DNA from: a virus
DNA length: 51,159 nucleotides
Direction: 5' to 3' (one strand)
Virus record (IMG/VR): IMGVR_UViG_3300035659_000023
Span: 1 to 51,159 of that record
Part shown: positions 24,618-50,814 of the stretch, in pieces
Numbering within the stretch: the first letter of the stretch is position 1
How the letters are laid out: each line of letters opens with the position of its first letter
Notes under the pieces: generated by a model
The model's database searches: none
The model's input: only the letters and a program-made list of their open reading frames with translations
Told to the model about the DNA's origin: nothing
Translations under genes and position numbers: made by a program

Positions 24618-24635
24618 ACAAGATAAGGTTTAATT

Positions 24636-27600
24636 ATGTATAGAAAAGTAAATGCTTTTTTAAGAACATTATTATATATAGTAATATCTTTTATGATAAC
24701 TGGGGGAACTTTCCCCCAGGTTCATAAAATTATTATAGGTAATAAAATAAGTGGGCCCTCTCAAGTAGATTCTCTTCCCAGTACTTTTGTATTTAATGAT
24801 ATTACTGGAGCTGAACTATCTACTCTTTATACTTCCAATGGAGTAACTTTAACCAATTTTGATAGTGCTTACGCTTACGGAGGTGGAAAGGAATTTAGAG
24901 TAAACTTAGGAAGTTGGGGAAGTTCTTATAAGAGGGTTCACCGCGATGACGTAGTATACATTAGAAATACATCTTCCGGTTCTTATTTAACTACCGTGAA
25001 TGCTACGCTAACTGTTGGAGGAGTTAGCGATGTTTATTCTATTACTACTAAGGCTTCTATTATAGATACCATACCTGCCGATTTTCAATTCGCAGATCAA
25101 CTTAATGCGGAACTATCCACTTTGTATTCCTCAAATGGTATAACCTTAAATGCTTTTGATAGCTCCTACGCCTATGCAGCTGGTAAAGAATTTAAAGTAA
25201 ACTCCGGTAGTTTTAGTTCTACTATAAGAAGAGTTCATCGTAACGATATTGTATACATTAGAAATACTTCTTCAAGTTCTTATTCAACTATAGTTAATGC
25301 TACCTTAAACATAGGGGGGGTAACTGATGTTTATTCTATTACTACTAAGGCCCCACCAGATACAATACCGGCTAGTTTTGTATTTACTCCTGTTACTAAT
25401 GCTGCTTTATCTACTCTTTACACTTCTAATGGCGTAACTTTAACTAGTCTCGATAGTGCTTATGCTTATGCTACTGGTAAAGAATTTAAAGTAAATTCTG
25501 GTAGTTTTAGTTCTACTATAAGAAGAGTTCATGGTAATGATGTAGTATACATTAGAAATACTTCTTCAGGTTCTTATTCAACTACCGTTACAGCTACTCT
25601 AACCGTAGGTGGCGTGGGAGGAATTTATTCTATTACAACATCGACTGCTCCCGATACTGTCCCCGCGACTTTTGCATTTAATGATATTACTGGAGCTGAA
25701 CTATCTACCCTTTATACTTCTAATACTATAACTTTAACCAATTTTGATAGTGCTTACGCATACGCAGCGGGTAAATTATTTCAAGTAAATTCTGGAAGTT
25801 TCAGCGCTACTAGAAGAAAAGTTTATAATAATAATACCGTACGTATTCAAAATACTTCTTCTAGTTCTTACTTAACTACAGTAGATGCTACTTTAACAGT
25901 GGGGGGTATAAGTGATACTTATTCTATTACTACTAGATCTGCTACTCCTCCTCTTTATGTGGAAGGAGGGCATTTTATTTCCAAAAATGGTTCTAATACA
26001 GTTCCTTATAATACCTGGGCTAAAGCTTGTACCAACTGGACTGCTAGTAGCCCCCTTTGGCCATATTTAAATATCGGTGACACTATTTGGGTTGATGGTG
26101 GAGCCGATTCGACTAATTATACTGGCGTCGTACAAATCGATAATAAAACAGGGACCGCAGCTTTACCAATTGTGATTACTAAGGGTATATCTCCTGGGCA
26201 TAATGGAGAAGTATGGTTTGATGGACAAGATGCTACTAATAAGAATTTTATTCTCCACGGATGTAAGTATATGAAAGTACAAAGAATCAATACTTATCGC
26301 GGTGGTATATTAATTGACGAAAATGGTTCTTCTCTTGTAAATGTAATTTATCTCGATAGTATAAAAGTAAGAAATTCCTATACTCAAGGAATAGAAATAT
26401 CAGGATACCCAGCTACTTCCAATGTAGATTCTGTACTTGTAAGATGGTGCGATATACGTAATGATAGAGTAACCTCTACCGAAACCGATGGTATAGCTTT
26501 TTCATTCATGACTAATTTCTTCGCTCTAAATAATAATATCTATGTAAACAATCAAAATGCATCTCATGTTGATTGCATAATGGGTTATGCTTCTGTAAGC
26601 GGGCAGTCAATAACGAACGTTACTATAGCGAGAAATCATATGATAAATTACTCCCAGAAGACGGGGTATCCCAGTAACGCTGATAATGGCGTTATTATGT
26701 CTGAATTAGTAGGGACTATAAAGATTTATGATAATTTTCTTGCAGAACCGAGATTTGACTCTAATGCTGGTATAGGATTCTTTACTACAGGAACTAACTT
26801 CCTTTTATATTTTTATAATAATACTGTTGTAACCAATACTTCCAATAATGCTTTACAGATTGCTACTTATGCAGGTACTATAAATCCTGCATCAGAAATT
26901 AAGAATAATATTTTTTATTCAAAGGCAAGTAGTTCTGCTTATGAATTTAGTTCTAGTATAACAGCGGCTAATATAAACTATAATTGTTATTATTACACTA
27001 CTGGTAATACTTCTATTTGTAATTACGGAGGCACTAAAAATTTAGCTCAAATGAAAACTGCAGGAGCCGAGACTAATGGAATAAATACAAATCCATTACT
27101 TGCTAATCCTAATTATGCTAATATAGCTCATTTTGATGATAGACTACAGGCAGGTTCCCCTTGTATAAATATAGGACTTAATACTTTAGGCTCCGATTAC
27201 GCAAAGGATAGAGTAGACTATATCAGAACTGGTTCTTGGGATATGGGAGATTACGAATATGCTCCTCTTTATGTCGAACATGGACATTTTATTTCTCCTA
27301 ACGGAAGTAATACATCTCCATATGATACTTGGCAGAAAGCTCAAACTACTGTTTCTAGTTCTAGTATATGGAGTCAAGTTACAGCTGGTGATACTGTTTG
27401 GGTAGATGGTGGGGTAGGCTATGATTCTTTAGTATATAATACTAATATGGATATTCAAACGAGCGGAAATGCTAATGCTTTAGTAGTTGTGAGAGCTGGA
27501 AAAACACCCGGGCACTACGGTAAGGTTGTAATAGCAGGAAGTACTTCTGGTACTAATATTACTATTCAAGATAGAAAGTATCTTAAACTCGAGAAAATAA

Positions 27601-28643
27601 CAGTTAGAATGCAAAATGGAACTAATCAAGGTATTTATATAAGAGGTAACAATACTTCAGAAGGACTTAATGTTATATATATAGATAGTTGTACTGTTAC
27701 TTGTTATGATAAAAATTTCACAACTTGGTTAATGCGTATAGATGGTTACCCCGGCCCCGGTACAACTAGACTCGATTCTGTTTTTGTAAGATATGGATTT
27801 TATAGAAATTGGATGATAACTCCGCAGGACATTCAAAAGGACGCTATTATAGCACAGTATGCGCAAAATATATTTATTATAGGAAACGATGTTGCTGTTA
27901 TGAATGATTATAATGTTTTCGATACACAAGCTCATAATGATTGCTTTGCAACCGACAATATTTGCAAGAACGTTACTATAGCATTTAATAGATTATTTAA
28001 CTGGCAGGCGAACAACGGGAGATCCCAAGTTCTTATTTGTAGTGTTGATGGATTTTTTAAAATTTATGCAAATATAATAGCTTCACCTTATTTTAGAATA
28101 AATGGTCAGGCTTGGCCCTCTACTTTAAATATGGGAGGGTCCAGTAATTCTCCAACTTGTTACATTTTCAATAATACCTTTATAGGGGGTTCTAATCCTT
28201 ACGTAGTTCAGATAGACGGCGCTATAAATACCCCACAGACTCGTCTTAAGAATAATATTATTTATTCTATGTACCCGTGTGATTCTGGTACTAACCCCCG
28301 AGTTCATTTTAGAACAACTTCCCCGACTTGGAATTATATAGATGGTAACTTATATGCGGAATATTCCGATGGAAGTACTAATAATTTGATTAGTAGTTAT
28401 ACCATGACTCAATTAAGAGCCTCTCCAAGATTCGCTGAAAGTATAGGTATTGGTTCTGATAGATGGAATATATCAAACTCAACTATATTTACAAATATAG
28501 CTACTTGGGATTTAACATTAAAGGTAGGTTCCGCCGCTATTGATAAAGGAGTAGATTTAACTGGTGAGGGCGTAGAATATACAAAAGATATTACAGGAAA
28601 GACTAGAACAGGTTCTTGGGATATTGGAGCTTACGAAAAGTAA
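24636..28643 (+). CDS. Secreted protein: four ~98-aa beta repeats plus two beta-helix domains (1335 aa)
   Basis: A signal-like N-terminus (LLYIVISFMITGGTFPQ) is followed by four tandem repeats of about 98 residues, at about 45-437. Each has the pattern P-x-x-F-x-F, LSTLYTSN, DSAYAYA, VHxNDVVYIRNTSS and TLTVGG...YSITT, apparently an Ig-like or bacterial-adhesin fold. Two beta-helix modules come next, at about 442-877 and 878-1335, both starting GHFIS(K/P)NGSN. They end DMGDYEY and DITGKTRTGSWDIGAYEK. The gene closes the giant cluster and overlaps the next start (TAATG). Role as adhesin, depolymerase or surface coat is inference. Confidence 0.75.
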   Translation: MYRKVNAFLRTLLYIVISFMITGGTFPQVHKIIIGNKISGPSQVDSLPSTFVFNDITGAELSTLYTSNGVTLTNFDSAYAYGGGKEFRVNLGSWGSSYKRVHRDDVVYIRNTSSGSYLTTVNATLTVGGVSDVYSITTKASIIDTIPADFQFADQLNAELSTLYSSNGITLNAFDSSYAYAAGKEFKVNSGSFSSTIRRVHRNDIVYIRNTSSSSYSTIVNATLNIGGVTDVYSITTKAPPDTIPASFVFTPVTNAALSTLYTSNGVTLTSLDSAYAYATGKEFKVNSGSFSSTIRRVHGNDVVYIRNTSSGSYSTTVTATLTVGGVGGIYSITTSTAPDTVPATFAFNDITGAELSTLYTSNTITLTNFDSAYAYAAGKLFQVNSGSFSATRRKVYNNNTVRIQNTSSSSYLTTVDATLTVGGISDTYSITTRSATPPLYVEGGHFISKNGSNTVPYNTWAKACTNWTASSPLWPYLNIGDTIWVDGGADSTNYTGVVQIDNKTGTAALPIVITKGISPGHNGEVWFDGQDATNKNFILHGCKYMKVQRINTYRGGILIDENGSSLVNVIYLDSIKVRNSYTQGIEISGYPATSNVDSVLVRWCDIRNDRVTSTETDGIAFSFMTNFFALNNNIYVNNQNASHVDCIMGYASVSGQSITNVTIARNHMINYSQKTGYPSNADNGVIMSELVGTIKIYDNFLAEPRFDSNAGIGFFTTGTNFLLYFYNNTVVTNTSNNALQIATYAGTINPASEIKNNIFYSKASSSAYEFSSSITAANINYNCYYYTTGNTSICNYGGTKNLAQMKTAGAETNGINTNPLLANPNYANIAHFDDRLQAGSPCINIGLNTLGSDYAKDRVDYIRTGSWDMGDYEYAPLYVEHGHFISPNGSNTSPYDTWQKAQTTVSSSSIWSQVTAGDTVWVDGGVGYDSLVYNTNMDIQTSGNANALVVVRAGKTPGHYGKVVIAGSTSGTNITIQDRKYLKLEKITVRMQNGTNQGIYIRGNNTSEGLNVIYIDSCTVTCYDKNFTTWLMRIDGYPGPGTTRLDSVFVRYGFYRNWMITPQDIQKDAIIAQYAQNIFIIGNDVAVMNDYNVFDTQAHNDCFATDNICKNVTIAFNRLFNWQANNGRSQVLICSVDGFFKIYANIIASPYFRINGQAWPSTLNMGGSSNSPTCYIFNNTFIGGSNPYVVQIDGAINTPQTRLKNNIIYSMYPCDSGTNPRVHFRTTSPTWNYIDGNLYAEYSDGSTNNLISSYTMTQLRASPRFAESIGIGSDRWNISNSTIFTNIATWDLTLKVGSAAIDKGVDLTGEGVEYTKDITGKTRTGSWDIGAYEK
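24768..25950 (+). repeat. Four in-frame Ig-like coding repeats of ~294 bp
   Basis: Units start near 24768, 25065, 25359 and 25653, with DSLPSTF, DTIPADF, DTIPASF and DTVPATF at their heads. The DNA is also alike (for example GGTAGTTTTAGTTCTACTAT in units 2 and 3), so the duplications are fairly recent or maintained by conversion. Confidence 0.85.
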
Positions 28644-30136
28644 TGAAGAACTGGAGACAAATATTAGGTTGGCAAGTTCAGAATAGTTATACTGTTGAAG
28701 AAATGATAACGATGTTAGCTCCTCACCAAATATGGAAGGACGCTCGAGACTACTCTTATCTTTTTATGATAGGTGATGTAATTGAAGTTGTATGGAAAGA
28801 GAAGGATTCTGGCGGGGAACCGCGGTATGTTATACAAGAGGCCATATGGGCAAGTTCTCTTCACAGTAGAGTATCTCCTGGTTGTTTCGCTTATCTTTAT
28901 CTAGATGCCGGCCCTTTTGAATTATTGAGTGAAGAAGATATAAATAAACTCTCTTGGCAAGTATTCTTAGGAGATATAGACCCTATGGACAGAGGTATTA
29001 TGGCTAGTTTACTAACCGCTGACGATGATCATGTAGTAGCTTTATTATGCATACCTTCCGATACTACTATAGATGATATAGCTAAAGATATGATCGATTC
29101 GGGGTTTACTGAAGAAGCTTTTTTGTTTCAAGATATGGTAAAAAGAGCAAAAGGAGTAGCATGGGAGGCTACCGATGAATTCTCTAACGTAATGAGAATA
29201 GAGGAAATTAAAAGATATTATAAAGTACATTATCCCAACGACGAACTAAACTTTATTCCCGACTGGTTGAAGGTTAAAAAGGCTTTTAAGGAGATAGTAG
29301 ATAGTTATAACCTTCCTGATAAAGAATCCTCTAAACTATCATGGCAAGATTCGACTTATGGTGGTAAATATGATATTGGTGCTTTAGTATTTGACCCGCT
29401 ATCTAAAAGATTTGGTAAGGTTACTTTTGTAGGACCTTTAAGTAAAGTAGAAGGACTAGATAAGGGTAAACAAGTTTATTTAACAAAATATAAAATAAGA
29501 AACGAGAAAAAAGATATTCCTTCAGAAGATGACCCTACCGTAATGCTTTTGGACTTAAACGTAGGATTCGCCCACTATGAAGGAAATATACAATCTCCCA
29601 ACGAATTTATGACTATAGACCCTCCTAAGACTGTTATAAGAGGTTTAACAAGTGGTGTTAAGAAGGTAAAGAAACTGCCAGAGGAAGGGGATTCCCACGA
29701 AGATATATTCGAAACTTCTTCCCCCAATCATACTTACTTTAAAGACGCTAGACTTTCTTTAGAAGTAGTTGGACAAGGAATATTCAAACTATCATGGCAA
29801 ATACAAGAACCAGTTTTAAAAGTAGGGGATAAAGTAAAGATAATAGCATTTCTTAAAAAATTAAGAGATTTGGATATTGTTTTTTACGCTCGGAATACTG
29901 ACGAATTCGATCCAAATACTATTTATGAGGTAGCATCTATAGATACTAGCGAGGTTGGAACGATGGGTATTTATAGTGATAACATGTGGGTAAACATAAG
30001 AGAAAACTCAATGGGGGCTGGTTGGTGGATTCCTTATCATTATTGGCAGGAATTTTTAGAGATAGTAGAATCTAAAGAAGCATCTTTAACACCCGCTGAT
30101 AAAGAAGAATGGCTACAAATAATAGAAGGGGGATAA
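28643..30136 (+). CDS. Modular LSWQ protein with N-terminal leader and three internal KLSWQ sites (497 aa)
   Basis: The ATG at 28643 overlaps the preceding stop, giving the leader MKNWRQILGWQVQNS. KLSWQ recurs at residues 102-106, 231-235 and 382-386, cutting the protein into four modules of roughly 100-150 residues. The first module has a QIWKDA segment like QIWEAK in the 34426 protein. The module after 231 is SH3-like (YDIGALVFDPLSKRFGKVTF); the one after 382 again has LKVGDKVKIIAF and ends in an acidic segment. Each KLSWQ marks a domain start, as if a polyprotein or serial fusion of LSWQ-led proteins. No enzymatic motif. Confidence 0.65.
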   Translation: MKNWRQILGWQVQNSYTVEEMITMLAPHQIWKDARDYSYLFMIGDVIEVVWKEKDSGGEPRYVIQEAIWASSLHSRVSPGCFAYLYLDAGPFELLSEEDINKLSWQVFLGDIDPMDRGIMASLLTADDDHVVALLCIPSDTTIDDIAKDMIDSGFTEEAFLFQDMVKRAKGVAWEATDEFSNVMRIEEIKRYYKVHYPNDELNFIPDWLKVKKAFKEIVDSYNLPDKESSKLSWQDSTYGGKYDIGALVFDPLSKRFGKVTFVGPLSKVEGLDKGKQVYLTKYKIRNEKKDIPSEDDPTVMLLDLNVGFAHYEGNIQSPNEFMTIDPPKTVIRGLTSGVKKVKKLPEEGDSHEDIFETSSPNHTYFKDARLSLEVVGQGIFKLSWQIQEPVLKVGDKVKIIAFLKKLRDLDIVFYARNTDEFDPNTIYEVASIDTSEVGTMGIYSDNMWVNIRENSMGAGWWIPYHYWQEFLEIVESKEASLTPADKEEWLQIIEGG

Positions 30137-30915: not shown

Positions 30916-31415
30916 TAACTTACTGGAATCAATTTATAGCTACATTCAAGGATATTTTATTAGCATCTTTGTTCTTTGCTATATGCGCATTTTTAAATGC
31001 TTCTATGGATGTAACTAAAGATAAATTTTCTTCTAGTGTTTACAGTAAAATCTCCGAACCCGGCACTGCCACTTATAAATACTTTGAAAGTGACTGGAGA
31101 AACAAATGGGAAACCTGGCCAGATGGGGGGTTAATATTGGATAAGGATGGTAATAAGATTCCAAAATGGTTTTTAGGAATACATATTGTACCTTTGAATC
31201 ACCCCATGTTTTTTGATAGTTGGCATCTGTTTAAATCTGCAATGGTATTTTTCTTTGGAGTAACATTAATTGTTCTTTATTTTAAAGCTGCTAAAATTAT
31301 ATTTAAATTTAATAAGTGGTATTACTGGGTCGTATTAGGAATAGTGTTAGTATGGTTCTTTCTCGACTGGAATATTGTGTTTAATCTATTTTATGATCAT
31401 TGGCTAATGGTATGA
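30912..31415 (+). CDS. Polytopic membrane protein (167 aa)
   Basis: Hydrophobic spans are visible near residues 13-30 (DILLASLFFAICAFL), 105-125 (SAMVFFFGVTLIVLYF) and 138-160 (YYWVVLGIVLVWFFLDW). A hydrophilic stretch of about 70 residues between the first two contains WETWPDGG and DSWHLF. The start overlaps the previous gene as ATGA. I see no known transporter or holin motif; the WHLF-containing layout resembles uncharacterised membrane proteins found in phages and Bacteroidota. Probably acts with the tail-anchored protein upstream. Confidence 0.6.
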   Translation: MITYWNQFIATFKDILLASLFFAICAFLNASMDVTKDKFSSSVYSKISEPGTATYKYFESDWRNKWETWPDGGLILDKDGNKIPKWFLGIHIVPLNHPMFFDSWHLFKSAMVFFFGVTLIVLYFKAAKIIFKFNKWYYWVVLGIVLVWFFLDWNIVFNLFYDHWLMV

Positions 31416-33604
31416 ATGAACCGGACTTAAAACTAAGTTGGAAAGTTGAGATACTTCCGGACTCTAAAGAAATTCTTAAGGATAAATCATGGAGCGATTC
31501 TAATTATGAAAAACAGACTCAATACTGGGTGGACGATGCTCGAGTGAAATCAGAAGCCTACCAAAAATATATTTTCTTTATAATAGATAACGGGCATATA
31601 ACACCAAGTTCTCATAGTATTTTTAATGCTTACATAAATGAGAATAAAGATAATTTAACTATAGAGGAGATAGCACAAGCTTTAAATGACTTATGGCCTA
31701 CCACCGACGAAGATTCTAAGGACTTTTTACTGTATAATGCTCGAAGATTAGGAATAAAAGAATCCTCCTCCAAATTAAGTTGGCAAGTACAAGAGCCTTC
31801 CTCCTTCGAGGAACTGGTTGGATATTTAATACATTATGGTAGTCCCCTTTCTCACAGTTACTACCGTAATGAATATGGCGTAATAACTAGTGTGGTAACA
31901 TCCGACGACCCCAAATATAAGGATACAATTTTACTCTGGGGGTTTTGGGCGGGTTCTGCTGAAGACGCTTTATATTATTACGAACACCCCCAGAAGCTAG
32001 TCGAATCTAGATTACCTTCTTTTTGGCCCGTGCCCCTTACCGATTTTGATAAAATAAAAGTTATTAAAGAAGTAACTATTTCTTCTCTTAAACTCTCCTG
32101 GCAGACCTTTAATATCTATGAAGGTAAATATAGAGAAGGACCTGGTTTCGATTATATAGTTACTAAGGATGGTAAACCTTTTTCTCACGTTACTTCTCTC
32201 GCTATAGAAAATCATTCTCCTACTGGATTCGCTTGGGGTTACGGTGGTTCTGGACCCTCTCAACTCGCACTCGCCATCCTTTATGATCATACTAATGATG
32301 CTGAATTTGCTAAAAAATGGAGATGGGCATTTAAGGATGATTATACTTCCAAATGGCCCTCTAATAGAGATTGGCAATTATCCGGAGATGAAATAGATAA
32401 TTGGATAAACGAAAAGACTATACAAAAGGAATCCTGGGTTATTAGAAGAACTCTCTCTAAAGGCGAAATAAGAGACTTGATAACTTCGGTAGGTTTAACT
32501 CCTATTAATTTCTACATGGGCAAACGAACTAGAAGAGTAGACGCTGGTTACTTAGTAAATGATAAATGGGAAAATATCCCTGGGGAAATGATTGAGAAAT
32601 TAAAAAGTGAACTGTCGGCTCTTACTCCGGAAGGGAGAATAGAGCAATCAAGGTATAAAGGAAAAAGTATAATAGTAAAAGTCCCTGTTTATAGAGATAC
32701 CCCTAACTTGCCTTGGAGGGAAGTTAAAAAACAATTAAAAGCTTTAGGGTTTGATAGAATAGATGTTATAACAGGAACCACCGAAATAAGAGTGGATGTT
32801 TGGGGAATAGACGACCTTCATCCTACTCATAGAAGGGAAATGGTTCGTGAAATTACTACTATATTAAGACAATTCAATCCTAATTTTAAAGCCTATGAAA
32901 CCAACTTACCAGGTTACTTTACCTTTACAGCACCAATAAAAATACAAGAATATCCAGATGAAGTTACTTCTAGTTTAGAAAAAGAATCTTGGGCTATGAC
33001 TAAGAATATGAGTAAGCAACGCTTAAGGGAAATAATAAATGAAGTAGGTTTAACTGCTTTAAACCTTTATATAGGACGCCGCCAAAGAAAAGCGTTTGTA
33101 GGTTATAGACCTAATAATAGATGGGAAAATATACCTCCGGAAACCGTACAGCTTTTGAAAGATAGACTAGAACAAGAAGCCCCCGATACGGAAGTACAAT
33201 TCCCCATTACCAGTCCTTATTTTCAATATTTAGGCCCCCGCGTAAGTGAAAAAGCCAAAAAGTTTCTAGTTATTTTCGTATCTATAAAAAGAGATAGACA
33301 ATTGCTTCCAGTAAAAGAAGTTAAGGATGCTATTAAAGAGAAATTTCCTCAGTATGAAGTTAGACTTTTTACTCGAACTAATGAAATAGAAATTTCTATT
33401 GATACTCCTTGGAATATAGAAGGTAGATCCGAAAATTTAAGAGGGCCGACTAAAGAAGCAAGATGCCAAGAATTACTAAATATATTAAAACAGTTTAATA
33501 CTAATACTATAATATCACCGTCTAATAATTGGCGGAGGAACGAATCTGGATATCATTTCCTTATTCCCTTTTCTCCTTATCAAGAATATGTTACTGGAGA
33601 ATGA
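31412..33604 (+). CDS. Modular LSWQ protein with duplicated KESW modules (730 aa)
   Basis: The ATG at 31412 overlaps the prior stop (ATGA); a TTG at 31400 is an alternative. LKLSWK sits at residues 6-11, SKLSWQVQEP at about 120-129 and LKLSWQTFN at about 226-234. Two large related modules begin KESWVIRRTLSKGEIRDLI (about 339) and KESWAMTKNMSKQRLREII (about 523). They share GLTxxNxYxGRRxRK, WENIPPE and a beta-rich half with PWREVKKQLK or PVKEVKDAIK, so one arose by duplication. No catalytic motif seen. Same architecture logic as the 28643 gene: each LSWQ or ESW peptide opens a module. Confidence 0.65.
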   Translation: MNEPDLKLSWKVEILPDSKEILKDKSWSDSNYEKQTQYWVDDARVKSEAYQKYIFFIIDNGHITPSSHSIFNAYINENKDNLTIEEIAQALNDLWPTTDEDSKDFLLYNARRLGIKESSSKLSWQVQEPSSFEELVGYLIHYGSPLSHSYYRNEYGVITSVVTSDDPKYKDTILLWGFWAGSAEDALYYYEHPQKLVESRLPSFWPVPLTDFDKIKVIKEVTISSLKLSWQTFNIYEGKYREGPGFDYIVTKDGKPFSHVTSLAIENHSPTGFAWGYGGSGPSQLALAILYDHTNDAEFAKKWRWAFKDDYTSKWPSNRDWQLSGDEIDNWINEKTIQKESWVIRRTLSKGEIRDLITSVGLTPINFYMGKRTRRVDAGYLVNDKWENIPGEMIEKLKSELSALTPEGRIEQSRYKGKSIIVKVPVYRDTPNLPWREVKKQLKALGFDRIDVITGTTEIRVDVWGIDDLHPTHRREMVREITTILRQFNPNFKAYETNLPGYFTFTAPIKIQEYPDEVTSSLEKESWAMTKNMSKQRLREIINEVGLTALNLYIGRRQRKAFVGYRPNNRWENIPPETVQLLKDRLEQEAPDTEVQFPITSPYFQYLGPRVSEKAKKFLVIFVSIKRDRQLLPVKEVKDAIKEKFPQYEVRLFTRTNEIEISIDTPWNIEGRSENLRGPTKEARCQELLNILKQFNTNTIISPSNNWRRNESGYHFLIPFSPYQEYVTGE

Positions 33605-33616: not shown

Positions 33617-34436
33617 ATTAGTTGCTTTAAGTAAAAGACATCCCCTTTGTAAAATATGCACTGTATTCGAAGACGACCTCCTTAACGACATTACCCTTGA
33701 TATAGTATTACAAAGGAAAACGTATAAAGAAATATGTGAATGTTACTCTAAACTATTACCCCCTAACATCCCTGATATAAACGATATTAATGTTAGAAAT
33801 CACAAAAGACATTGCGATCCTGGCTTACTAGCTAAGGAATACTTACAACAACAGGGTATGGCTATTACTCCAGGTGAGATTGCTGTAAAGTTATACGCAG
33901 AAATTTATAAGGATGAGATTGATAAGAACAACACATTAAATGAATTGTATAGAGAAAGAATCAAAAATATGCAATCTCTTCAATTAGTGCTAGATGAAAA
34001 GCATTTAAGAGCCGATGAATTGGAAAGAACTTTACAAAAAGCAAAAGATGAAAGACAACCAGATTCTGTTATAAACGATATGGCTTACCGGTTAAAGGAA
34101 ATACAAGGTGATATAAGATCCTATATTAAGCAGATAGATTCCATGCAAGGGGAAGTTCAAGATGTAATATTAAAAGAGAAGCAGGCTGAAAAGACCCCGA
34201 TGGAAGGGACTATCTATGTTACTCAAAACTATGTAAATATATTTCAAGTTCATATGCAATCCTTTCTTGATGAATTAGTACCTTCAATGTTACAAGAGTT
34301 TAGAGATATTCCCGAAAGAGGAAAGAAAACCATACAACTAATTACATCTTGTATGGATAGACATATTGGCTCTGCTCTTGATGAAACTAAGTTATTAAAG
34401 TATACAAAAGGTAAAAAAATATTAAATGGAGACTAG
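33609..34436 (+). CDS. Candidate small terminase-like HTH/zinc protein (275 aa)
   Basis: The N-terminus has LCKIC, followed by TLDIVLQRKTYKEICECYSK and a later NHKRHC. This is a compact zinc/helix-turn-helix arrangement (C..C...H..HC) like DNA-binding domains in some small terminase subunits. The middle is coiled coil (LRADELERTLQKAKDERQ, RLKEIQGDIRSYIKQIDS), suited to ring assembly, and the C-terminus is helical. It sits one small gene upstream of the large terminase, where small terminases usually lie. The assignment rests on position and shape, not on a diagnostic motif; it could be another DNA-binding virion protein. Confidence 0.5.
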   Translation: MNELVALSKRHPLCKICTVFEDDLLNDITLDIVLQRKTYKEICECYSKLLPPNIPDINDINVRNHKRHCDPGLLAKEYLQQQGMAITPGEIAVKLYAEIYKDEIDKNNTLNELYRERIKNMQSLQLVLDEKHLRADELERTLQKAKDERQPDSVINDMAYRLKEIQGDIRSYIKQIDSMQGEVQDVILKEKQAEKTPMEGTIYVTQNYVNIFQVHMQSFLDELVPSMLQEFRDIPERGKKTIQLITSCMDRHIGSALDETKLLKYTKGKKILNGD

Positions 34437-34797
34437 ATATACCGATACTAAGAGTAGAGGGTTGAAGATTTTATCTTGGCAAGTACAACTGCTTACTTGG
34501 GGCGATTTTCTAAAAGAGGTAGGCCCCAATCAAATTTGGGAAGCCAAGAATGGTCCGGGACTCGCGGGGCATTATTTACATACTACTATAGAATCTAATA
34601 CGTATCCTCTTTGGATGACCCATATAGATATTACAAGGGCGCTATGGTTACCTCAAGTGGATTACTCTTTATCCGATGACGACCACCATGCTTATAGGTT
34701 AATACAACTATATTTTGTATTTATAGGTTATAAAACCTATATTCTTATTACCGCTTGCGTTGTCGAGTCCCGCGGACCTTTTATGAGGGTTAAATAA
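34426..34797 (+). CDS. LSWQ protein (123 aa)
   Basis: Near the N-terminus it reads GLKILSWQVQLLTWGDFL, with SWQVQ as in the 9152 and 28643 proteins. The next 50 residues (VGPNQIWEAKNGPG) resemble the first module of the 28643 protein (LAPHQIWKDARDYS), suggesting a shared small domain, possibly SH3-like. The ATG lies within the end of the previous gene with an 11-base overlap. Small and of unknown function, it directly precedes the terminase gene. Confidence 0.55.
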   Translation: METRYTDTKSRGLKILSWQVQLLTWGDFLKEVGPNQIWEAKNGPGLAGHYLHTTIESNTYPLWMTHIDITRALWLPQVDYSLSDDDHHAYRLIQLYFVFIGYKTYILITACVVESRGPFMRVK

Positions 34798-34812: not shown

Positions 34813-37326
34813 TTGTCTAAAATTATAAGTTTCTCAGACTACGCTAACGATCTTATCGATAGTTCCATATCTTCTTACGGAGAAATAGAACCGTTAGATG
34901 CCTTTGCATTTATAACCTCTTCAGATTATTTAAACGAAGATCCTACCCCCTTTCAAAGTTTAGCTATTAAAACTCTTTACAATCTTTGGGGTATATATCC
35001 CCCTATCTTAGAGGAAGAAGAACTAATAAGAATTCTCTACAGAGATTGGAATATAAAAGTAGAATTAGATAGAGAAGACCCTGTTACTCATTTTATAATG
35101 GTTTTAGGTCGAAGGAGTACTAAATGCTTAACGGGAGATTCCGAAATAATAGATGCTAATATGGGGAAGATTTATAAGTTAGGAGATTTATATGAATATA
35201 ATTTACATCCCCCGATTTTTACATTAAAGAATGATTTTAAATTTACTAAAACTACTGATTACAGAGTACTTGATAATGGAATTAAACCCTGTTATAAAAT
35301 ATTAACTAAGACTGGGAGAACCTTAGAGTGTACTGATAACGAACCCTTTTTAACAATTGAGGGATGGAAAGAACTTAAAGATCTAAAAGAAAAAGATAGA
35401 ATAGCTGTACCTTCTGTTTTACCTATCTTTGTAACTGATAAAGTTATAACGAAGAACGCAGCTAAAATGGATAATGCTTTTATTACTTCTATCCCGAAAG
35501 AAATTTGGAATTATGTAGATAAGATAAGAATCGGAAAAGGATTAAAGAAACAGGATATACGAAAAGTGAAAAAGATTAGTGAATACTTAGACGATACCTA
35601 TCTTAAGAACTTAGTTAAAGCTGATGTAATTTGGGATCCTATTAAAAGTATCGAGTACGTTGGGAAGAAGCAAACTTACGATTTAAACGTGCCAGATACT
35701 CATAATTTTATAGCTAATAATATTGTAGTACATAATAGTACTTTAGCATCTTTCTTTGCTACTTATGCTCTTTACACCCTTATATGTAGAGGTAATCCCC
35801 AAAAATATTATGGAATAAGAGAAAGGCATCCTATTTATGTAACTCACGTGGCTGCTAAAGGAAAACAGGCAGAAAGCGTTTTTATACTAACTAAAGATAA
35901 TCTGAGAAAAGTTCCTTTCTTTGACCCTTACTTAGATTTTGATAAAGATAGTCTTACAGAACTCCGACTTTTTACTCCTTACGATAAATACCTTAACGAT
36001 CAGATTAAACAGATGAATATATTACTTCCAAGAGGAGAACTTAAAAAGCCGAAGAGGCCCGGTTCGTTATATGCGAAATCTATTACTACATCCGCAGCTA
36101 CTAATAGAGGCGATGCTACTTTTATGTTAATGCTTTCCGAGTTTGCGCACTTCTTAAGGGCTAGGATGGATCCTTCTAAAACAGCAGACCAGGTAGCGGA
36201 AGAAAACCCTCAGAGTGATTATGCTATTTATAAAGCTTTAGTACCCGCTGTTAAAGACTTTGGAGAAGATGGTAAGATTATATTGGAGTCATCCCCTGCA
36301 GAAAAAGGTGGGGAAATGTATAGACATTATGGTATTGCTGGAGGTTCCGAACAAGAAGGTGGGCAGACTATGGAGAGGGAAGTAGGTTATGCTTTATTAC
36401 AATTACCTACTTGGGCCGCGAGACCCAGTATATCAAGAGAATCATTAGCATCTGAATTTAGGAGCGATTCAGTGGGGGCCAACGCTGAATATGGGGCTCA
36501 TTTTCTTAATCCTTCTATGGCTTTTATATCTGAGAACGTTATAAATAGTATTCCTCAACCGGAAAGGGGTATAATACTTAGAAATCCAAGTAACTGGAGA
36601 TTCGTTATATGTTTAGATCCAGGGGGAAAGGCTAAAGTTAAAGTGGCCGATACTTACGCTTTAGGATGGGGGCACGCTGACGTTAAACCCGACGAAAGAG
36701 ATACCACTTATTGGATAGATGGATTTAAAGGATGGGATGCTATTCCAAAAGATATAGGTTTTGGGAAAATAGAAACAATACCTGTGGACCCCAACGAAGT
36801 TTTGAACTATTTAATAGAGTTAATAAAAGACTTAGGAGGGAGAAACTTTGTATTAGAAATATGTTATGATCAATGGCAAAACCAACAAGCTGTATCTTCT
36901 CTTCAAGCTATAGGATTACCGGCTATCGAGACTACTTTTACTAATCCTTACAAAGGTCAGATGTATGGAGATTTCCTTTCTAAAGCCGAACACGGTCAAG
37001 TAAAAATGTATGGTCAAGATACCGAAGGTTGGGTAGATAGATGGAAACTGGAAATGAAATACTTACAAAGAATAATATCTGGTAAGTATACTTATTTTAA
37101 ACATCCCGATTCTGGCCCCGTAAGGCACGATGACTTCGCCGATGTTGCGAGTAACATTGTTCACAGACTTTCTATTTGGAGTTATCCTACTAAAGAAACT
37201 ACCGAAAGAAACATATTAGACAAACAAGGTAGACCAGTACGAAAACGAACTACTGTATATCCAGTAAAAGGGCCTGGTTTATATAGAGGAAGTCCATTGG
37301 GCGGTAGAACTTCAGGAGGGCGTTAA
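34813..37326 (+). CDS. terL: Terminase large subunit interrupted by an intein (837 aa precursor)
   Basis: TTG at 34813, behind AGAGGG, is the likely start. The Walker A motif reads GRRSTK-STLAS once the intein (residues 105-308) is removed; Thr replaces the usual second Gly. A Walker B-like segment MLMLSEFAHF is at about 438-447. The nuclease domain shows CLDPGG (about 600), LEICYDQW and HDDFADVA (about 772), carrying its acidic metal ligands. The spliced protein would be about 633 aa, normal for a TerL. It translocates DNA into the prohead and cuts concatemers. The last 30 residues are basic, Gly/Arg-rich. Packaging needs splicing, because the ATP-binding loop is split. Confidence 0.92.
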   Translation: MSKIISFSDYANDLIDSSISSYGEIEPLDAFAFITSSDYLNEDPTPFQSLAIKTLYNLWGIYPPILEEEELIRILYRDWNIKVELDREDPVTHFIMVLGRRSTKCLTGDSEIIDANMGKIYKLGDLYEYNLHPPIFTLKNDFKFTKTTDYRVLDNGIKPCYKILTKTGRTLECTDNEPFLTIEGWKELKDLKEKDRIAVPSVLPIFVTDKVITKNAAKMDNAFITSIPKEIWNYVDKIRIGKGLKKQDIRKVKKISEYLDDTYLKNLVKADVIWDPIKSIEYVGKKQTYDLNVPDTHNFIANNIVVHNSTLASFFATYALYTLICRGNPQKYYGIRERHPIYVTHVAAKGKQAESVFILTKDNLRKVPFFDPYLDFDKDSLTELRLFTPYDKYLNDQIKQMNILLPRGELKKPKRPGSLYAKSITTSAATNRGDATFMLMLSEFAHFLRARMDPSKTADQVAEENPQSDYAIYKALVPAVKDFGEDGKIILESSPAEKGGEMYRHYGIAGGSEQEGGQTMEREVGYALLQLPTWAARPSISRESLASEFRSDSVGANAEYGAHFLNPSMAFISENVINSIPQPERGIILRNPSNWRFVICLDPGGKAKVKVADTYALGWGHADVKPDERDTTYWIDGFKGWDAIPKDIGFGKIETIPVDPNEVLNYLIELIKDLGGRNFVLEICYDQWQNQQAVSSLQAIGLPAIETTFTNPYKGQMYGDFLSKAEHGQVKMYGQDTEGWVDRWKLEMKYLQRIISGKYTYFKHPDSGPVRHDDFADVASNIVHRLSIWSYPTKETTERNILDKQGRPVRKRTTVYPVKGPGLYRGSPLGGRTSGGR
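35125..35736 (+). other. Intein (204 aa) in TerL Walker A, block B His replaced by Glu
   Basis: Block A is C105-LTGDSEI, block F is YDLNVPDTHNFIANN and block G is VVH307-N308, followed by Ser309 as the +1 nucleophile. Block B reads GRTLECTDNEPFL: the TxxH motif is T174-D-N-E177, so Glu replaces the catalytic His. Only about 85 residues separate the N- and C-terminal splicing blocks and no LAGLIDADG or HNH motif is visible, so it is a mini-intein or one with a decayed endonuclease. Confidence 0.9.
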
Positions 37327-39881: not shown

Positions 39882-40028
39882 TTGCCGTTGGCAATAATAA
39901 TCCATTTTTTAATAGCGATAGTCGTGGCTATAATTATTACTGGTTATAATATCGAAAATAGAAAGCCGGGCAATTGGATATTAACTTGGGGGGCATATAC
40001 ACAAGCCAAAGGAAGAGATGCGAATTAA
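39882..40028 (+). CDS. Small membrane protein (48 aa), TTG start
   Basis: AGGGA at 39869-39873 is 8 bases before TTG at 39882. The frame reads MPLAIIIHFLIAIVVAIIIT, a single N-terminal span, then NRKPGNWILTWGAYTQAKG. It fills the gap before the denV-like gene and overlaps its start by 11 bases. Likely real but unassigned. Confidence 0.5.
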   Translation: MPLAIIIHFLIAIVVAIIITGYNIENRKPGNWILTWGAYTQAKGRDAN

Positions 40029-40452
40029 TTTAGTTCCCCCTTTTGAATTAACAGATCAGCACCTGGTAGCTGAATATTGTGAGATTTTAATGCTTTGCGG
40101 TATCTTGCAAAGAACTTTACATAGTAAAAAAGGATTTCAAGTAACTAAAGTGCCAAAGGAATTTACTTTAGGTAAGGGGCATGCGTATTTCTTCTATAAC
40201 AAAGGAGTATATTTACATAATAGATTTGTAACTCTCAAGACTGAAATGTTGAGAAGAGGAATTAATACGAATAAGAGTTTTCCAATCAATATGTGGCCGA
40301 AGGAATTGTTAAATAACTGGACTCCAACTTTCAAAGATTTAAGTATAATAAGGAAGCGAATTTCTGAAAGGCTTAAAGGAAAACCAGGGTGGTATAAAAA
40401 AAATAAACTCTTAATAGATAACTTTATAAATAGATTTGAGGATGTTGCTTGA
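40018..40452 (+). CDS. denV: Pyrimidine-dimer DNA glycosylase / endonuclease V-like (144 aa)
   Basis: The N-terminus MRINLVPPFELTDQHLVAEY aligns with T4 DenV (TRINL...ADQHLMAEY), and later GKGHAYFFY and PGWYKKNK match GAGHVTFFY and PTWYKYYG. DenV-type enzymes cut UV-induced dimers by glycosylase plus AP-lyase action, using the amine of Thr2 and Glu23. Here E22 matches Glu23, but Met1 takes the place of Thr2. In addition, Arg22 and Arg26 of T4, which contact DNA, are Cys21 and Met. Activity may be changed. AAAGGAAG precedes the ATG. Confidence 0.85.
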   Translation: MRINLVPPFELTDQHLVAEYCEILMLCGILQRTLHSKKGFQVTKVPKEFTLGKGHAYFFYNKGVYLHNRFVTLKTEMLRRGINTNKSFPINMWPKELLNNWTPTFKDLSIIRKRISERLKGKPGWYKKNKLLIDNFINRFEDVA

Positions 40453-41415: not shown

Positions 41416-41450
41416 TATTAATGAAACAAATAAAATGCAGGAATACTAAG

Positions 41451-42896
41451 ATGCGAAAAAATCAAATTTTTGAAGTAGACATCGAAGGTTTAAGACAACT
41501 TCAAGAAGGCAAACCTAAGTGGATTATCATCCGCGAACTCCTCCAAAACGCAATAGATGAAGATATTAACGAATGTATTATTTCTATGGAATACAAGAGG
41601 GGTAAATTACTTCTTACTGTAGAAGATGATTCCCCAACCGGCTTTCAAGACCTTACTGATATTTATACTCTTTTCAAAGATACCTATAAACGCTCTGACG
41701 TTACTAAAAGGGGTAGATTTAACTTTGGAGAAAAACAAGTATTATGCCTCGCTGACTTTGCAGAGATAATTACCACGACCGGCGGTTACCATTTCGATAT
41801 GATTAAAGGTATAAAAACTCCTTTACGAACACGAAGGCAAAAAGGCAGTTCCGTTTATATAGAGGCGAGAATGTCTAAGAACGAATACTTTTCATGTAAA
41901 GAATATTGTAATCAAATATTAATACCTCCCGGTATAAGCTTTTACCTTAATGAAACTAATGAGCCTATGTTACAATTTTCTTATCAGGCTCCAGATATGT
42001 CATTCCCCGCTAACCTTCCTACAGAAATAAAGATGGAAGGCAAGATGAAAAAGGTTACACAGGCTACCCTTATAAATCTTCATAAAAAGGAAGGAGTTGC
42101 TTATATTTATGAAATGGGGATTCCTATTTGTGAAATTGATTGTGCCTATTCTATTGACGTTCAGCAGAAGGTACCACTATCTTCCGATAGAGATACCGTC
42201 GACTCTAAATACTTAAAACTTCTTTACGGAGAAGTTCTTAACTATACTATAAAAGAAATTAAGTCTGAACAAAGTTCCAACCTTTGGGTAAGAGAAGGGT
42301 TCGTATCTTCCAGAACTAGTAAAGAAGTTAGAAAAGAAGTACTAGAAAAACGCTTCGGAGAAAAATCCTTAATAGCTAACCCTATGGATAAGCGAAGCAT
42401 GGATGAGGCTATTACTAATAACTATAATGTAGTATATGGTTCCGAGATGAGTAAGGAGGAGTGGGGTATTATAAGAGAAGAAGAATTAATGGAGAGTACT
42501 TCTTCTAAATTCAAAATGCGTTTGGTAGACAGCAAGTGTATAGAAGGCACTGAGGTTCAGAAAAAAGTAGGAGAGTTTTGCGTAAAAATAGCTTACGAGT
42601 TTCTTAGTACTTTACCACTTAAAGTATCCTTTTATGATGCACCCGAAGCTACAGTGATGGCCGACTTTGATAGAGACGCTTATCACTTAAGATTTAATGT
42701 AGCTAAAATACCAACGACTTACTGGCATATAGGTAGTGGTAAAATTGATAATTGGAAATTACTTGATTTGATTATTCATGAGTTGGGGCACTATCGTGGA
42801 ATGCATTACGAACAATCCTATCATGAATGTATTACGATGTTAGGTAGTAGGTTGGCCGTGAAAGCTTTGCGAGACCCAGCGTGGTTTAATATTTAA
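41451..42896 (+). CDS. GHKL-type ATPase fused to C-terminal HExxH domain (481 aa)
   Basis: The start at 41451 (MRKNQIFEVD) has AGGA 8 bases upstream; 41421 is an in-frame alternative. A GHKL (Hsp90/MutL/histidine-kinase) ATP site is clear: N box ELLQNAIDE (29-37), G1 box DDSPTGF (59-65) and a G2-like GRFNFGEKQ (88-96). The C-terminus carries H443-E-L-G-H447 with E454 and HE 458-459 as possible third ligands, a zincin-like site. Histidine kinase H and receiver parts are absent. This ATPase-plus-HExxH arrangement appears in uncharacterised phage and bacterial proteins. It could be an ATP-driven, clamp-like protease or an inactive relative. Confidence 0.8.
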   Translation: MRKNQIFEVDIEGLRQLQEGKPKWIIIRELLQNAIDEDINECIISMEYKRGKLLLTVEDDSPTGFQDLTDIYTLFKDTYKRSDVTKRGRFNFGEKQVLCLADFAEIITTTGGYHFDMIKGIKTPLRTRRQKGSSVYIEARMSKNEYFSCKEYCNQILIPPGISFYLNETNEPMLQFSYQAPDMSFPANLPTEIKMEGKMKKVTQATLINLHKKEGVAYIYEMGIPICEIDCAYSIDVQQKVPLSSDRDTVDSKYLKLLYGEVLNYTIKEIKSEQSSNLWVREGFVSSRTSKEVRKEVLEKRFGEKSLIANPMDKRSMDEAITNNYNVVYGSEMSKEEWGIIREEELMESTSSKFKMRLVDSKCIEGTEVQKKVGEFCVKIAYEFLSTLPLKVSFYDAPEATVMADFDRDAYHLRFNVAKIPTTYWHIGSGKIDNWKLLDLIIHELGHYRGMHYEQSYHECITMLGSRLAVKALRDPAWFNI

Positions 42897-44103: not shown

Positions 44104-44328
44104 GTGACTTCTATAAGAGTATTAAAAACCCCTAAACGCGGGGAAAAATATTACTACATTGGATGTAGTTTAGGTTTATTCTCTGTAAAAGAAGAAATTT
44201 TTGCTGATGACACAACGGATCAACTGCGTTTGAAGCATTATAACATGTTTGAATTTTCTAGAGATGCTGAAAAAGTGCTTAAAGAAGTTACTAAGATTTT
44301 TGAGGATATAGGAGGTAATAAGTTTTGA
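44104..44328 (+). CDS. Hypothetical protein (74 aa), GTG start
   Basis: GTG lies one base after the preceding stop. Contains TPKRGEKYYYIGCSLGLFSV, then a C-terminal acidic helix (SRDAEKVLKEVTKIFEDIGG). Its 3' end (GGAGGTAATAAGTTTTGA) provides the ribosome binding site and TTG start of the glycosyltransferase, so the two are translationally coupled. Confidence 0.55.
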   Translation: MTSIRVLKTPKRGEKYYYIGCSLGLFSVKEEIFADDTTDQLRLKHYNMFEFSRDAEKVLKEVTKIFEDIGGNKF

Positions 44329-45728
44329 ATAAATATATTTCCTGGAAACTTTTAATAGTTATAGTAGGAGTTATTTGGGCGTACTCTTCTCATTGGCTTA
44401 CCGATGATATTTTTATTACCTTTAGATATATCGATAATTTATTAGCTGGTAATGGATTAGTTTACAACGTAGGAGAAAGAGTTGAAGGGTTTACACATCC
44501 ATTGTGGTTGACTATGTTAATTCCCTTTCATCCTAATCTTGAATTAGGCGCTCAATTACTCGGGCTATTCTCCTTTGCCGGAGTGATCTTTCTTCTGACT
44601 CGTTCCGGTTGGTTAGCTGCAGCTCTAGTTGTATGTAATATGGATATGCGAATATGGGCAACTGGCGGACTTGAAACGATGTTCTTTACGTTCCTGATAC
44701 TTTTATCTGTTTGGGCAGTTCGAGAAAAGAAGAATTGGGTAGGTTGGGTACTATTAGCTATAGTATTAACGAGACCCGATGGACTTCTAGTAGCAGGTAT
44801 AGTACTATTATTTACTGGATGGAAGACTGGGAAACCTTTATTACTACTGATTCCCTTTTTAGCCCTAAGATATTTTTACTATGGAGACTTATTACCTAAT
44901 ACTTATTACGCTAAATCTGGAGGTAATTTTTTATTTTCTACAGGACTTTATTACATCTGGATTTATATATCTGTCCATGTAAGTATCTTTTTAGTATTAG
45001 CGGGTTTCAAGTTTATTAAGAAAAAAGAAATAGCATTACCAATGGCCCTTATATTTGGCTATCTATTTTTATTTGTAGTAATGGTAGGCGGCGATTTTAT
45101 GTACGGGAGATTTATTACACCAGTAGTACCTTTGATTTATTTTGTTATAGAATACTTTCTACAAACATATAAGAACGTTTTTATACTTGCTACAGTATTA
45201 TTATTATCCTTTGTAATCGAAACCGGTCTTAGACAGAATTTGTTTTATGATAACAATCAACATAAACCAGCTTTTATATTACATGGTATTACCGATGAAA
45301 GTTGGTATTGGACCCACGATTTAGGTAATGGATTTAGTATTAGGGATATGGATAAGATGTCAGGAACAAGTATTAAAAATCTTTTCGGGGATACTAGATA
45401 TGTAGTGTTACTTAGAAGCCAATGCGCTTTTGCTTATTACTTGGGAGTAAAACAAACTTGTGTCATGAGTGAGGGTCTAACCGATAAATATATCGCTAGA
45501 TTACCTAGTAATGGCGAGGGTAGAGTAGGGCATGAACGAAAAGCACCCGTGGGATATATTCAAAGGCGCGGGGCCCAATTTTTATTTAGTAGGGCGCGTT
45601 TGAGCGATTACTACCCCGATAAACCCAACATAGGAGGCTTATTCGCCAACTTTCCAATCGGTAATGGATTTCAGATACATGGAGAAATTTTGAAATACGA
45701 TTCTTTAGTAGCTTTATTATTCAAATGA
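44325..45728 (+). CDS. Polytopic GT-C-type glycosyltransferase (467 aa)
   Basis: TTG at 44325 has GGAGG upstream and overlaps the previous stop. About ten hydrophobic spans fill residues 5-300. The first loop reads TDDIFITFRYIDNLLAGNG, with D27-D28 as the likely catalytic acid site, then VYNVGERVEGFTHPLW, PNTYYAK and GGDFMYGRFITPVVP. These hallmark arabinofuranosyltransferase-like / GT39-related enzymes that use polyprenyl-phosphate sugars. It would decorate an extracytoplasmic glycan or protein. The C-terminal 150 residues are a soluble domain. Rare in phage; suggests host surface modification, possibly blocking superinfection (inference). Confidence 0.8.
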   Translation: MNKYISWKLLIVIVGVIWAYSSHWLTDDIFITFRYIDNLLAGNGLVYNVGERVEGFTHPLWLTMLIPFHPNLELGAQLLGLFSFAGVIFLLTRSGWLAAALVVCNMDMRIWATGGLETMFFTFLILLSVWAVREKKNWVGWVLLAIVLTRPDGLLVAGIVLLFTGWKTGKPLLLLIPFLALRYFYYGDLLPNTYYAKSGGNFLFSTGLYYIWIYISVHVSIFLVLAGFKFIKKKEIALPMALIFGYLFLFVVMVGGDFMYGRFITPVVPLIYFVIEYFLQTYKNVFILATVLLLSFVIETGLRQNLFYDNNQHKPAFILHGITDESWYWTHDLGNGFSIRDMDKMSGTSIKNLFGDTRYVVLLRSQCAFAYYLGVKQTCVMSEGLTDKYIARLPSNGEGRVGHERKAPVGYIQRRGAQFLFSRARLSDYYPDKPNIGGLFANFPIGNGFQIHGEILKYDSLVALLFK

Positions 45729-48304: not shown

Positions 48305-49051
48305 ATGAAAGCGACTACTAAATTGCTTATTAAATCACTAACCTTCTGCTTCGCGGTAACTGCCTTGTTTTATGTAGCTTGTCTTAAAATCTTTATACCG
48401 AGTGTTCAGGGACTACCGACGAATCCTTATACTTCTAATTCTTATGAGTTATCTTTAGTTAATGCTGACTTGGGTATGTATGATTACATTTCTGATGTTA
48501 CTAAGTTAACTATATTAACTGCTATGGATTCCGCTCACAAAAAATTCCCCGATGTGCCTATTGGGTTAATGCACGCTATTACTAGAACCGAATCTGAGTA
48601 TCGTTTCTGGATTGATCATCCTATTGTTAAAGTTAGTGTAAAAGGGAAATTAGTAACTACTAACGCTATAGGTTTAGGTGGAGTTATATGGGACTTTTGG
48701 AGTGATTCTCTTATTGCTCACGGCATAGCTTATAACAGATCTGACCTTTATATTCCCAATGTTGGTATAATGGCGGAGGCGTGTATATTACATATTATAA
48801 TTAAAGATGTGATGAGCAATTTACCGAAAGAAACTAGTATTCTTTCACGAATACAATCTCAATATTATGGCGCCTATAGTAATATATATATGAGTAGGAT
48901 GCAACAAGTAACTTCCGACCTTTGGATGAAGCGAATGGCAAGAGAGATAAAGGACGTGTATTTAAACATTAATAAGTTGGTAGTACCACTAACGGATACT
49001 ATACCGAGTTGTTATAAAATTTCGGAAGGGCAAAAGGAGTTAAAGAAATGA
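48305..49051 (+). CDS. Membrane-anchored lytic transglycosylase-like protein (248 aa)
   Basis: AGAGGTAATCTT precedes the ATG. Residues about 7-30 (LLIKSLTFCFAVTALFYVAC) form a signal anchor. The catalytic region resembles SLT-type lysozyme-fold enzymes: GLMHAITRTESEYRF, with E96 as the likely acid, then TTNAIGLGGVIWDFW (the GLMQ-like segment) and PNVGIMAEACILHII. It would cleave peptidoglycan from the periplasmic side, for lysis or for entry. The anchor suggests a signal-arrest-release or membrane-held endolysin. Small membrane peptides lie immediately before and after. Confidence 0.7.
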   Translation: MKATTKLLIKSLTFCFAVTALFYVACLKIFIPSVQGLPTNPYTSNSYELSLVNADLGMYDYISDVTKLTILTAMDSAHKKFPDVPIGLMHAITRTESEYRFWIDHPIVKVSVKGKLVTTNAIGLGGVIWDFWSDSLIAHGIAYNRSDLYIPNVGIMAEACILHIIIKDVMSNLPKETSILSRIQSQYYGAYSNIYMSRMQQVTSDLWMKRMAREIKDVYLNINKLVVPLTDTIPSCYKISEGQKELKK

Positions 49052-50010: not shown

Positions 50011-50814
50011 ATGCCAGACGAATCGACAAAAAAATGTAATTGTATTTGGTGGGCTTTAGGTACCCTCGTAATAGCCTGTTTAGGGGTACTACTTTATATG
50101 CACGTTCTCACTCTTCAAAAGAATTTAGAAATAGCCCGTCAAAACCTTGCGGCAGCGAAGGATTCTGTACGTTATTATCAAACTCAGTATGGTATATTTA
50201 CTCAAAAATACGTGAGAGTAATTACAGATAAAGATAGTTTAGCTCAACTCTTAGAAAAACAAAATAGGGAATTAGTAGTATATCAGGAAATGAATACACG
50301 ATTACTTTTACAGTTAAAAGAAACTCAATCTCACGTAACACAAATAGATGAAAATACCTTAATGTCGCCTATTTATAACACTTACAGAGATCCGGGGTTA
50401 GTAGTTAATATTTATGATACCGTAACCTTTAGAAGAGCTAATTTAGAAGCGCCTTGGGTTTCTTATAGTAAACCTACCGTGGAAGCTTTAATGTATTACA
50501 GAATGGTAATCTTTAAAGACGAAAAGGGATTATTAACCGGTTCTGTTGAAACTTTCTCTCCTTATCTTAAAGCTACTAAACTCTCCACAAGTATAGTAGA
50601 TAACTATATTCCCCCTTCTTGCACCGACGAATTTCCCAAAGTATTTGGTTTTTCTATGGGGGGTAGTAGCCAATCTGTAGACCTTGGTATCTTTCTACGT
50701 GTTGGTTCTTGGGGTATTAACCCCGCTTATTCTTTTATGATGCGATCCTATGAGGGGTTCCATCCTAAAGCATATGATAAATTAAGATTAAACATTGTTA
50801 AATTTATATGGTGA
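50011..50814 (+). CDS. Spanin-like inner-membrane coiled-coil protein (267 aa)
   Basis: AAAGGAGTAATAA precedes the ATG. One N-terminal span (about 13-31, WWALGTLVIACLGVLLYM) leads into a coiled coil (residues about 33-110; LQKNLEIARQNLAAAKDSVR, LAQLLEKQNRELVVYQEMNT), then a beta-rich C-terminal domain (about 120-267). Topology matches i-spanin-type or fused spanin proteins that bridge inner and outer membranes during lysis of Gram-negative hosts. No lipobox is present. The lytic enzyme lies about 1 kb upstream. Alternative: a tail-tape or envelope-associated protein. Confidence 0.5.
   Translation: MPDESTKKCNCIWWALGTLVIACLGVLLYMHVLTLQKNLEIARQNLAAAKDSVRYYQTQYGIFTQKYVRVITDKDSLAQLLEKQNRELVVYQEMNTRLLLQLKETQSHVTQIDENTLMSPIYNTYRDPGLVVNIYDTVTFRRANLEAPWVSYSKPTVEALMYYRMVIFKDEKGLLTGSVETFSPYLKATKLSTSIVDNYIPPSCTDEFPKVFGFSMGGSSQSVDLGIFLRVGSWGINPAYSFMMRSYEGFHPKAYDKLRLNIVKFIW

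Follow-up and report, generated by a model that had tools for sequence, protein, structure and literature searches.

The window, that is, the whole stretch of 51,159 bases that was analysed, is a linear virus contig in which no end repeats were found, and the record is probably a fragment. An uninterrupted open reading frame of 467 codons, which begins with TTG and has no internal stop, occupies positions 44325 to 45728 of the plus strand, complete and where an earlier note on this DNA had placed it. It encodes an AftB-type GT-C glycosyltransferase. The features of the locus and the two domains of the protein are listed below.

44104-44328, plus strand: small upstream gene, 74 aa, an open reading frame with a 4-base overlap (TTGA) of its stop with the glycosyltransferase start
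44310-44315, plus strand: ribosome-binding site AGGAGG, as seen in the sequence itself, with a spacing of 9 bases to the TTG start
44325-45728, plus strand: gene of the AftB-like GT-C glycosyltransferase, 467 aa (open reading frame, partial match to NF041481, AftB sequence and fold matches)
44325-45245, plus strand: membrane domain, residues 1-307 (hydropathy segments and model helices)
45246-45725, plus strand: extracytoplasmic C-terminal domain, residues 308-467, with a GLTDxxxAR...GHER motif (model secondary structure and family conservation)

The overlap of the start with the upstream stop, together with the AGGAGG sequence, makes translational coupling of the glycosyltransferase gene to the small gene plausible, as had been suggested before. 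No Pfam or PHROG match was obtained for the 74-aa product. The GC content of the glycosyltransferase gene is the same as that of its phage surroundings, its GC3 (0.28) and codon use are like those of the other phage genes, and a dNMP kinase gene lies downstream on the same strand.

The record was identified as phage DNA by a terminase large subunit with an intein, the dNMP kinase, phage tail repeats and the location of nearly all genes on one strand. The terminase in the same record bears out the earlier statement that the enzyme is phage-encoded. The further description of the DNA as lytic-type could not be upheld for a linear 51-kb virus contig that is probably a fragment. Little is known of the phage itself. 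In the phage collection the closest sequences were terminases with 21-27% identity, and a comparison of synteny with 150 kb of the 485-kb phage LR745208 gave only two genes with weak similarity. Neither a tRNA nor an Rfam family was found in the window. The intein of the terminase gene (34813-37326) is inserted at Walker A (GRRSTK|C...HN|STLA; Pfam Intein_splicing, 1.2e-21). Four consecutive giant open reading frames of 1234-1335 aa occupy 13144-28643, each with a Sec-like signal peptide according to hydropathy and inspection by eye. Phage tail and YadA head repeats were recognised in the first and a weak polysaccharide-lyase match in the second, and the others appear beta-helix-like. Exported virion-type proteins would be odd in a phage.

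NCBIfam gave one family for the glycosyltransferase, the model NF041481 of AftB (CAZy family GT89), with an E value of 5.2e-10 over residues 5-90 only. The score of 38 bits compares with a curated cut-off of 1050 bits for this equivalog, and the protein was therefore not filed as AftB itself. When it was searched against the whole PDB with phmmer, the sole sequence match was AftB (9dlf_C, E 1.3e-7). Bacterial relatives were collected by a genome scan; 360 were confirmed, 80 kept and 57 aligned with the phage protein to give a family of 58 members. The best bacterial relatives share 43-44% identity with the phage protein over about 415 residues. The family profile matched AftB residues 37-574 at 3.4e-77, spanning the membrane and extracytoplasmic domains alike, and again AftB was the only PDB sequence match. 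Together with the phmmer result this establishes full-length homology to AftB, and the AftB model was matched by all 58 family members. Membership of GT39 or PMT was rejected, the phage protein having no Pfam family at E 1; PMT_2 was matched in only 8 of the 58.

The earlier designation as arabinofuranosyltransferase/GT39-like was thus retained in part. A GT-C enzyme with an arabinofuranosyltransferase-type signature is present, and AftB is its closest solved homologue by sequence and by fold, but neither GT39, for want of a Pfam PMT match, nor arabinose, for want of a DprE1-type gene in the nearest relatives' genomes, could be kept. The motifs on which the designation was based are all present (TDDIFITFR, residues 26-34; ERVEGFTHPLW, 51-61; PNTYYAK, 191-197; GGDFMYGRF, 255-263). 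The alignment indicates that they are not there by chance, since D28, R34, G115, E117, P191, R262 and G402 are invariant across the 58 sequences.

An AlphaFold2 model of the phage protein (pLDDT 89.9, pTM 0.92) was compared with known structures. AftB ranked first both with Foldseek (E 3.7e-9) and with VIA-align (Z 24.9, rmsd 3.6, 408 residues), the next family reaching Z 19.9. The fold matches that followed AftB were Pmt4, ArnT and ALG12 (Z 19-20) and oligosaccharyltransferases. The predicted model, with AftB as its best match, has a GT-CA fold with an extracytoplasmic C-terminal domain. Hydropathy and the model gave about eleven membrane helices, an approximate count, plus juxtamembrane helices. 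In the C-terminal motif G402 is invariant and H403 is found in 54 of the 58 members; AftB has the same motif region. The phage protein has 467 residues compared with about 600-650 in its nearest relatives, and the acceptor-side domain is thus reduced.

AftB is a mycobacterial beta-(1->2)-arabinofuranosyltransferase (PDB 9dlf, 9dlh; PMC12041299), and its active site was used as the reference. D62 is essential, the D62A mutant being inactive; R221, R372 and T91 lie at the donor phosphate, and R221 and R372 mutants are inactive; T274 contacts the sugar ring and E172 the C5 hydroxyl (PMC12041299). The equivalent residues were counted along the phmmer and profile alignments to AftB, and the codons are as follows.

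44406-44408, plus strand: D28, equivalent to catalytic AftB D62; invariant, 58 of 58
44493-44495, plus strand: T57, equivalent to AftB T91 (donor phosphate); 57 of 58
44673-44675, plus strand: E117, equivalent to AftB E172 (sugar C5 hydroxyl); 58 of 58
44772-44774, plus strand: R150, equivalent to AftB R221 (donor phosphate); 57 of 58
44901-44903, plus strand: T193, equivalent to AftB T274 (sugar ring); 49 of 58
45108-45110, plus strand: R262, equivalent to AftB R372 (donor phosphate); 58 of 58

All six donor and catalytic residues of AftB are kept in the phage protein. The possibility had been raised that the function of D27/D28 might be lost. This was not the case; position 27 varies (48 D and 10 E among the 58 sequences) and D28 is invariant, so that the residue that matters is the second aspartate of the pair, the family-invariant equivalent of AftB D62. 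Judged by alignment, the active site is intact, with every residue named as needed in place. Beside these likenesses, which extend to the profile match, the predicted fold (Z 24.9) and the common GLTD...GH motif region, the two proteins differ in that they are about 20% identical, the solved AftB chain has 669 aa against 467, and the phage gene is phage-borne with no decaprenyl-phospho-arabinose pathway nearby.

A maximum-likelihood tree grouped the phage protein with two Ignavibacteria, one Eisenbacteria and one further bacterium (5 rows, support 99/97). When relatives from the class of the genome of one of these bacterial enzymes (L016) were added, the phage protein fell in an 11-row set with Latescibacterota (97/90) in which its sister was not resolved. 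It therefore lies among GT-C enzymes and not, as the earlier note had wished to see checked, with non-glycosyltransferase membrane proteins. Its end branch is long, 1.2-1.4 changes per column. The nesting in a bacterial clade, the long branch, the best identity of 44% and the phage-like codon use indicate that the gene was acquired long ago from a bacterium, most probably one of the Ignavibacteria/Eisenbacteria/Latescibacteria neighbourhood, and this neighbourhood may also hint at the host. The phage terminase was not found in a sample of 197 genomes from the class to which the L016 genome belongs, which shows nothing on its own. The AftB-like enzymes of Ignavibacteria and Eisenbacteria (L013, L014, L016, L111-L114), within which the phage protein nests (identity of at most 43-44%, some 415 residues aligned), differ from it in being encoded by chromosomal single genes and in having longer C-terminal domains; two of the genes adjoin housekeeping genes (gltX and clpX, by eye). 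In one Latescibacterota genome (L038:5956-9324) two divergent AftB-like GT-C genes adjoin each other on opposite strands.

GT-CA enzymes, AftB and ArnT among them, transfer a sugar from an outer-leaflet polyprenyl phosphate to an acceptor outside the membrane. The furanose contacts E117 and T193 most likely point to a pentofuranose donor. Genes for making such a donor were sought in the window record, which may be a fragment, and in a 98.5%-identical twin contig, and no GT2 (PF00535), UbiA or GtrA (PF04138) was found, GT2 and GtrA being searched in six frames. The donor must therefore come from the host or from unseen phage genes. A phage Gtr serotype-conversion system was also considered and was rejected because neither GtrA nor GT2 was present in the six frames of this possibly fragmentary record or of its twin.

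The capacity of the bacterial relatives to make a lipid-linked pentose was evaluated. A polyprenyl-phosphate phosphoribosyltransferase (NF008978) was matched in the genomes of five of the six nearest relatives, three of them over the curated cut-off, and none was found in the genome of L013, the top relative in the scan. In a phylum sample, NF008978 was matched in 19 of 19 genomes with an AftB-like enzyme and in 26 of 99 without (Fisher 6e-10), the genomes not being independent. In the class of the L016 genome it was present in 181 of 197 genomes, 56 of 56 with the glycosyltransferase compared with 125 of 141 without (p 0.004, with the same non-independence); the contrast is smaller here, as nearly every genome of the class carries the synthase. 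The co-occurrence, which class membership mostly accounts for, does not prove a partnership of the two genes; it supports donor availability, in that bacteria of this kind are probably able to synthesise the lipid donor. Corynebacterium glutamicum makes arabinan, and its genome was positive as a control for the DprE1-type ALO domain; this domain was found over cut-off in none of ten near relatives' genomes, which leaves arabinose unsupported. Given that NF008978 is usual among the relatives and the ALO domain is not found, arabinose is a less good guess than polyprenyl-phospho-ribose or an epimer produced by a different route.

The glycosyltransferase gene was found in one virus record only. 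No relative was detected by tblastn in 50,697 phage records with the phage protein and two bacterial relatives as queries, nor in IMG/VR by peptide-pattern scans, in which short patterns can miss distant copies. The twin contig (L002) stops at window position 40611, 3.7 kb before the gene. No related phage over the locus was revealed by scans that used the terminase, the HSP90-like gene, the transglycosylase-like gene and a structural gene as queries; their only yield was this near-identical contig, which stops short of the glycosyltransferase gene, and a single fragment of 4.8 kb. Weak GT-C likenesses at the level of fold were seen in a few other viruses (BFVD). A Nitrosopumilus spindle-shaped virus protein (A0A514K2W1) and one of an uncultured Caudovirales phage (A0A6J5M3A1) matched the phage model with a fold probability of 1.00 and a TM to target of 0.56-0.58, but with E values of 0.01-0.07 and 12-15% identity over 284-326 residues only, and no sequence relation was seen.

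Alteration of the host surface by phages with lipid-linked sugars has been described chiefly for the gtr operons of enterobacterial temperate phages. The GtrC proteins of P22 and the Shigella phages (PMC3688519, PMC3636060) are, like the enzyme described here, phage-borne membrane transferases that use a lipid-linked sugar on the periplasmic side, and they alter the O antigen, a phage receptor. They differ in that they come with gtrA and gtrB, belong to other sequence families, transfer mostly glucose and are found in temperate phages. The earlier judgement that such a gene is unusual in a phage thus needs qualification: phage-borne periplasmic glycosyltransferases are classical, but those known occur in three-gene gtrABC sets and belong to other families. 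What is new is one of the AftB type, alone and without gtrA or gtrB. Bacterial enzymes offer a second comparison, made by description only. The GT136 three-component pentofuranose systems (PMC11127046) and TfpW (PMC11841053) are periplasmic GT-C enzymes using polyprenyl-phosphate pentofuranose, as is proposed for the phage enzyme. Both are bacterial, and the GT136 systems have a donor synthase, a flippase and epimerases.

It is slightly more probable than not, in our judgement, that the gene encodes a working GT-C enzyme of the AftB superfamily, captured long ago from a bacterium, that transfers a pentofuranose from host polyprenyl phosphate to a surface glycan or glycoprotein of the host and so changes a receptor. 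During infection, the enzyme would insert into the host inner membrane, draw a pentofuranose, either ribofuranose or one of its epimers, from the host polyprenyl-phosphate sugar and add it, on the periplasmic side, to the surface glycan or glycoprotein. With the receptor altered, competing phages or newly made particles would fail to adsorb to the dying cell. An anti-competitor role of this kind, which the earlier note also had in mind, is plausible by analogy. A host surface glycan or pilus would be the simplest acceptor because there are precedents for each: pilin is glycosylated by the GT-C D-Araf transferase TfpW, which allows pilus phages to be evaded (PMC11841053), and phage GtrC modifies the O antigen (PMC3688519).

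The possibility was considered that the enzyme is active but draws on a hexosyl-phosphate-polyprenol, with mannose, glucose or a similar sugar. GT-C enzymes with other donors are close in structure (Pmt4, ArnT and ALG12, Z 19-20), the Pfam families PMT_2 and Glyco_transf_22 are matched by some of the 58 members, and DprE1-type genes were not found in the relatives' genomes; yet all six donor contacts of AftB are kept, including the glutamate that touches the furanose C5 hydroxyl, and AftB is the sole PDB sequence match, so that a hexose donor is possible but unlikely. The acceptor could instead be made by the phage, the enzyme decorating the products of the four giant genes at 13144-28643. Their signal-peptide-like N-termini may bring all four to the periplasm, where a GT-C enzyme works, and the first has the phage tail repeat and YadA head. 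Against this, the signal peptides were recognised solely from hydropathy and inspection by eye, the genes are 15-30 kb away from the glycosyltransferase gene and are linked to it by nothing seen, and no such partners accompany the bacterial relatives, which occur singly among housekeeping genes. This acceptor is regarded as quite improbable. A broader formulation, in which a large phage has a stand-alone periplasmic pentofuranosyltransferase that would use the host polyprenyl-phospho-ribose pool on either the host envelope or its own Sec-exported giant fibre-like proteins, is thought rather unlikely. If true, it would amount to virus-directed extracytoplasmic pentofuranosylation, of which no description was found.

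It was also asked whether the gene has any present role. A neutral or inactive passenger (a moron) would fit its occurrence in one record, with no relative in the other phages searched, and its long branch. However, 467 codons have stayed open despite great divergence, none of the family-invariant residues has been lost, the ribosome site is strong and the codon use phage-like, and a passenger is therefore deemed improbable. An assembly chimera, in which a bacterial gene was joined to a phage contig, would be in keeping with the end of the only near-identical contig at 40611, before the gene. But the start overlaps a phage-type small gene, phage genes lie on both sides on the same strand, including the dNMP kinase downstream, GC and GC3 are the same, and the closest bacterial homologues are only 44% identical; a chimera is scarcely credible.

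If the favoured reading, host surface modification by a pentofuranosyltransferase, is correct, the use of lipid-linked sugars by phages to change a surface would, with this AftB-type enzyme, reach another enzyme superfamily, probably another sugar class, the pentofuranoses, and phages of little-studied bacteria. As a short and divergent AftB homologue, the protein also allows a minimal set of active-site residues to be read.

Several other genes of the phage were noted. Downstream of the glycosyltransferase gene, 48305-49051 encodes a membrane-anchored transglycosylase-like protein and 50011-50814 a membrane-anchored, spanin-like coiled coil, both by eye. The product of 41421-42896 begins like an HSP90/GHKL-type ATPase and has a HELGHY metalloprotease-like motif in its C-terminal part; its sole phage relative was found in a 485-kb uncultured phage (32% identity over 97%). 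A Pyrimidine dimer DNA glycosylase is encoded at 40018-40452 (7.4e-12), and the 1594-aa protein of 4364-9148 has an internal DMP19 domain (5.5e-11). The phage proteins contain the tetrapeptide LSWQ 9 times, compared with 0.04 expected in shuffles; the copies are in the products of 4364-9148, 9152-9505, 12510-12791, 28616-30136, 31400-33604 and 34426-34797. It is often found as NWRxILSWQVQ, at the N-terminus or between repeated domains, and is possibly a processing or assembly signal.
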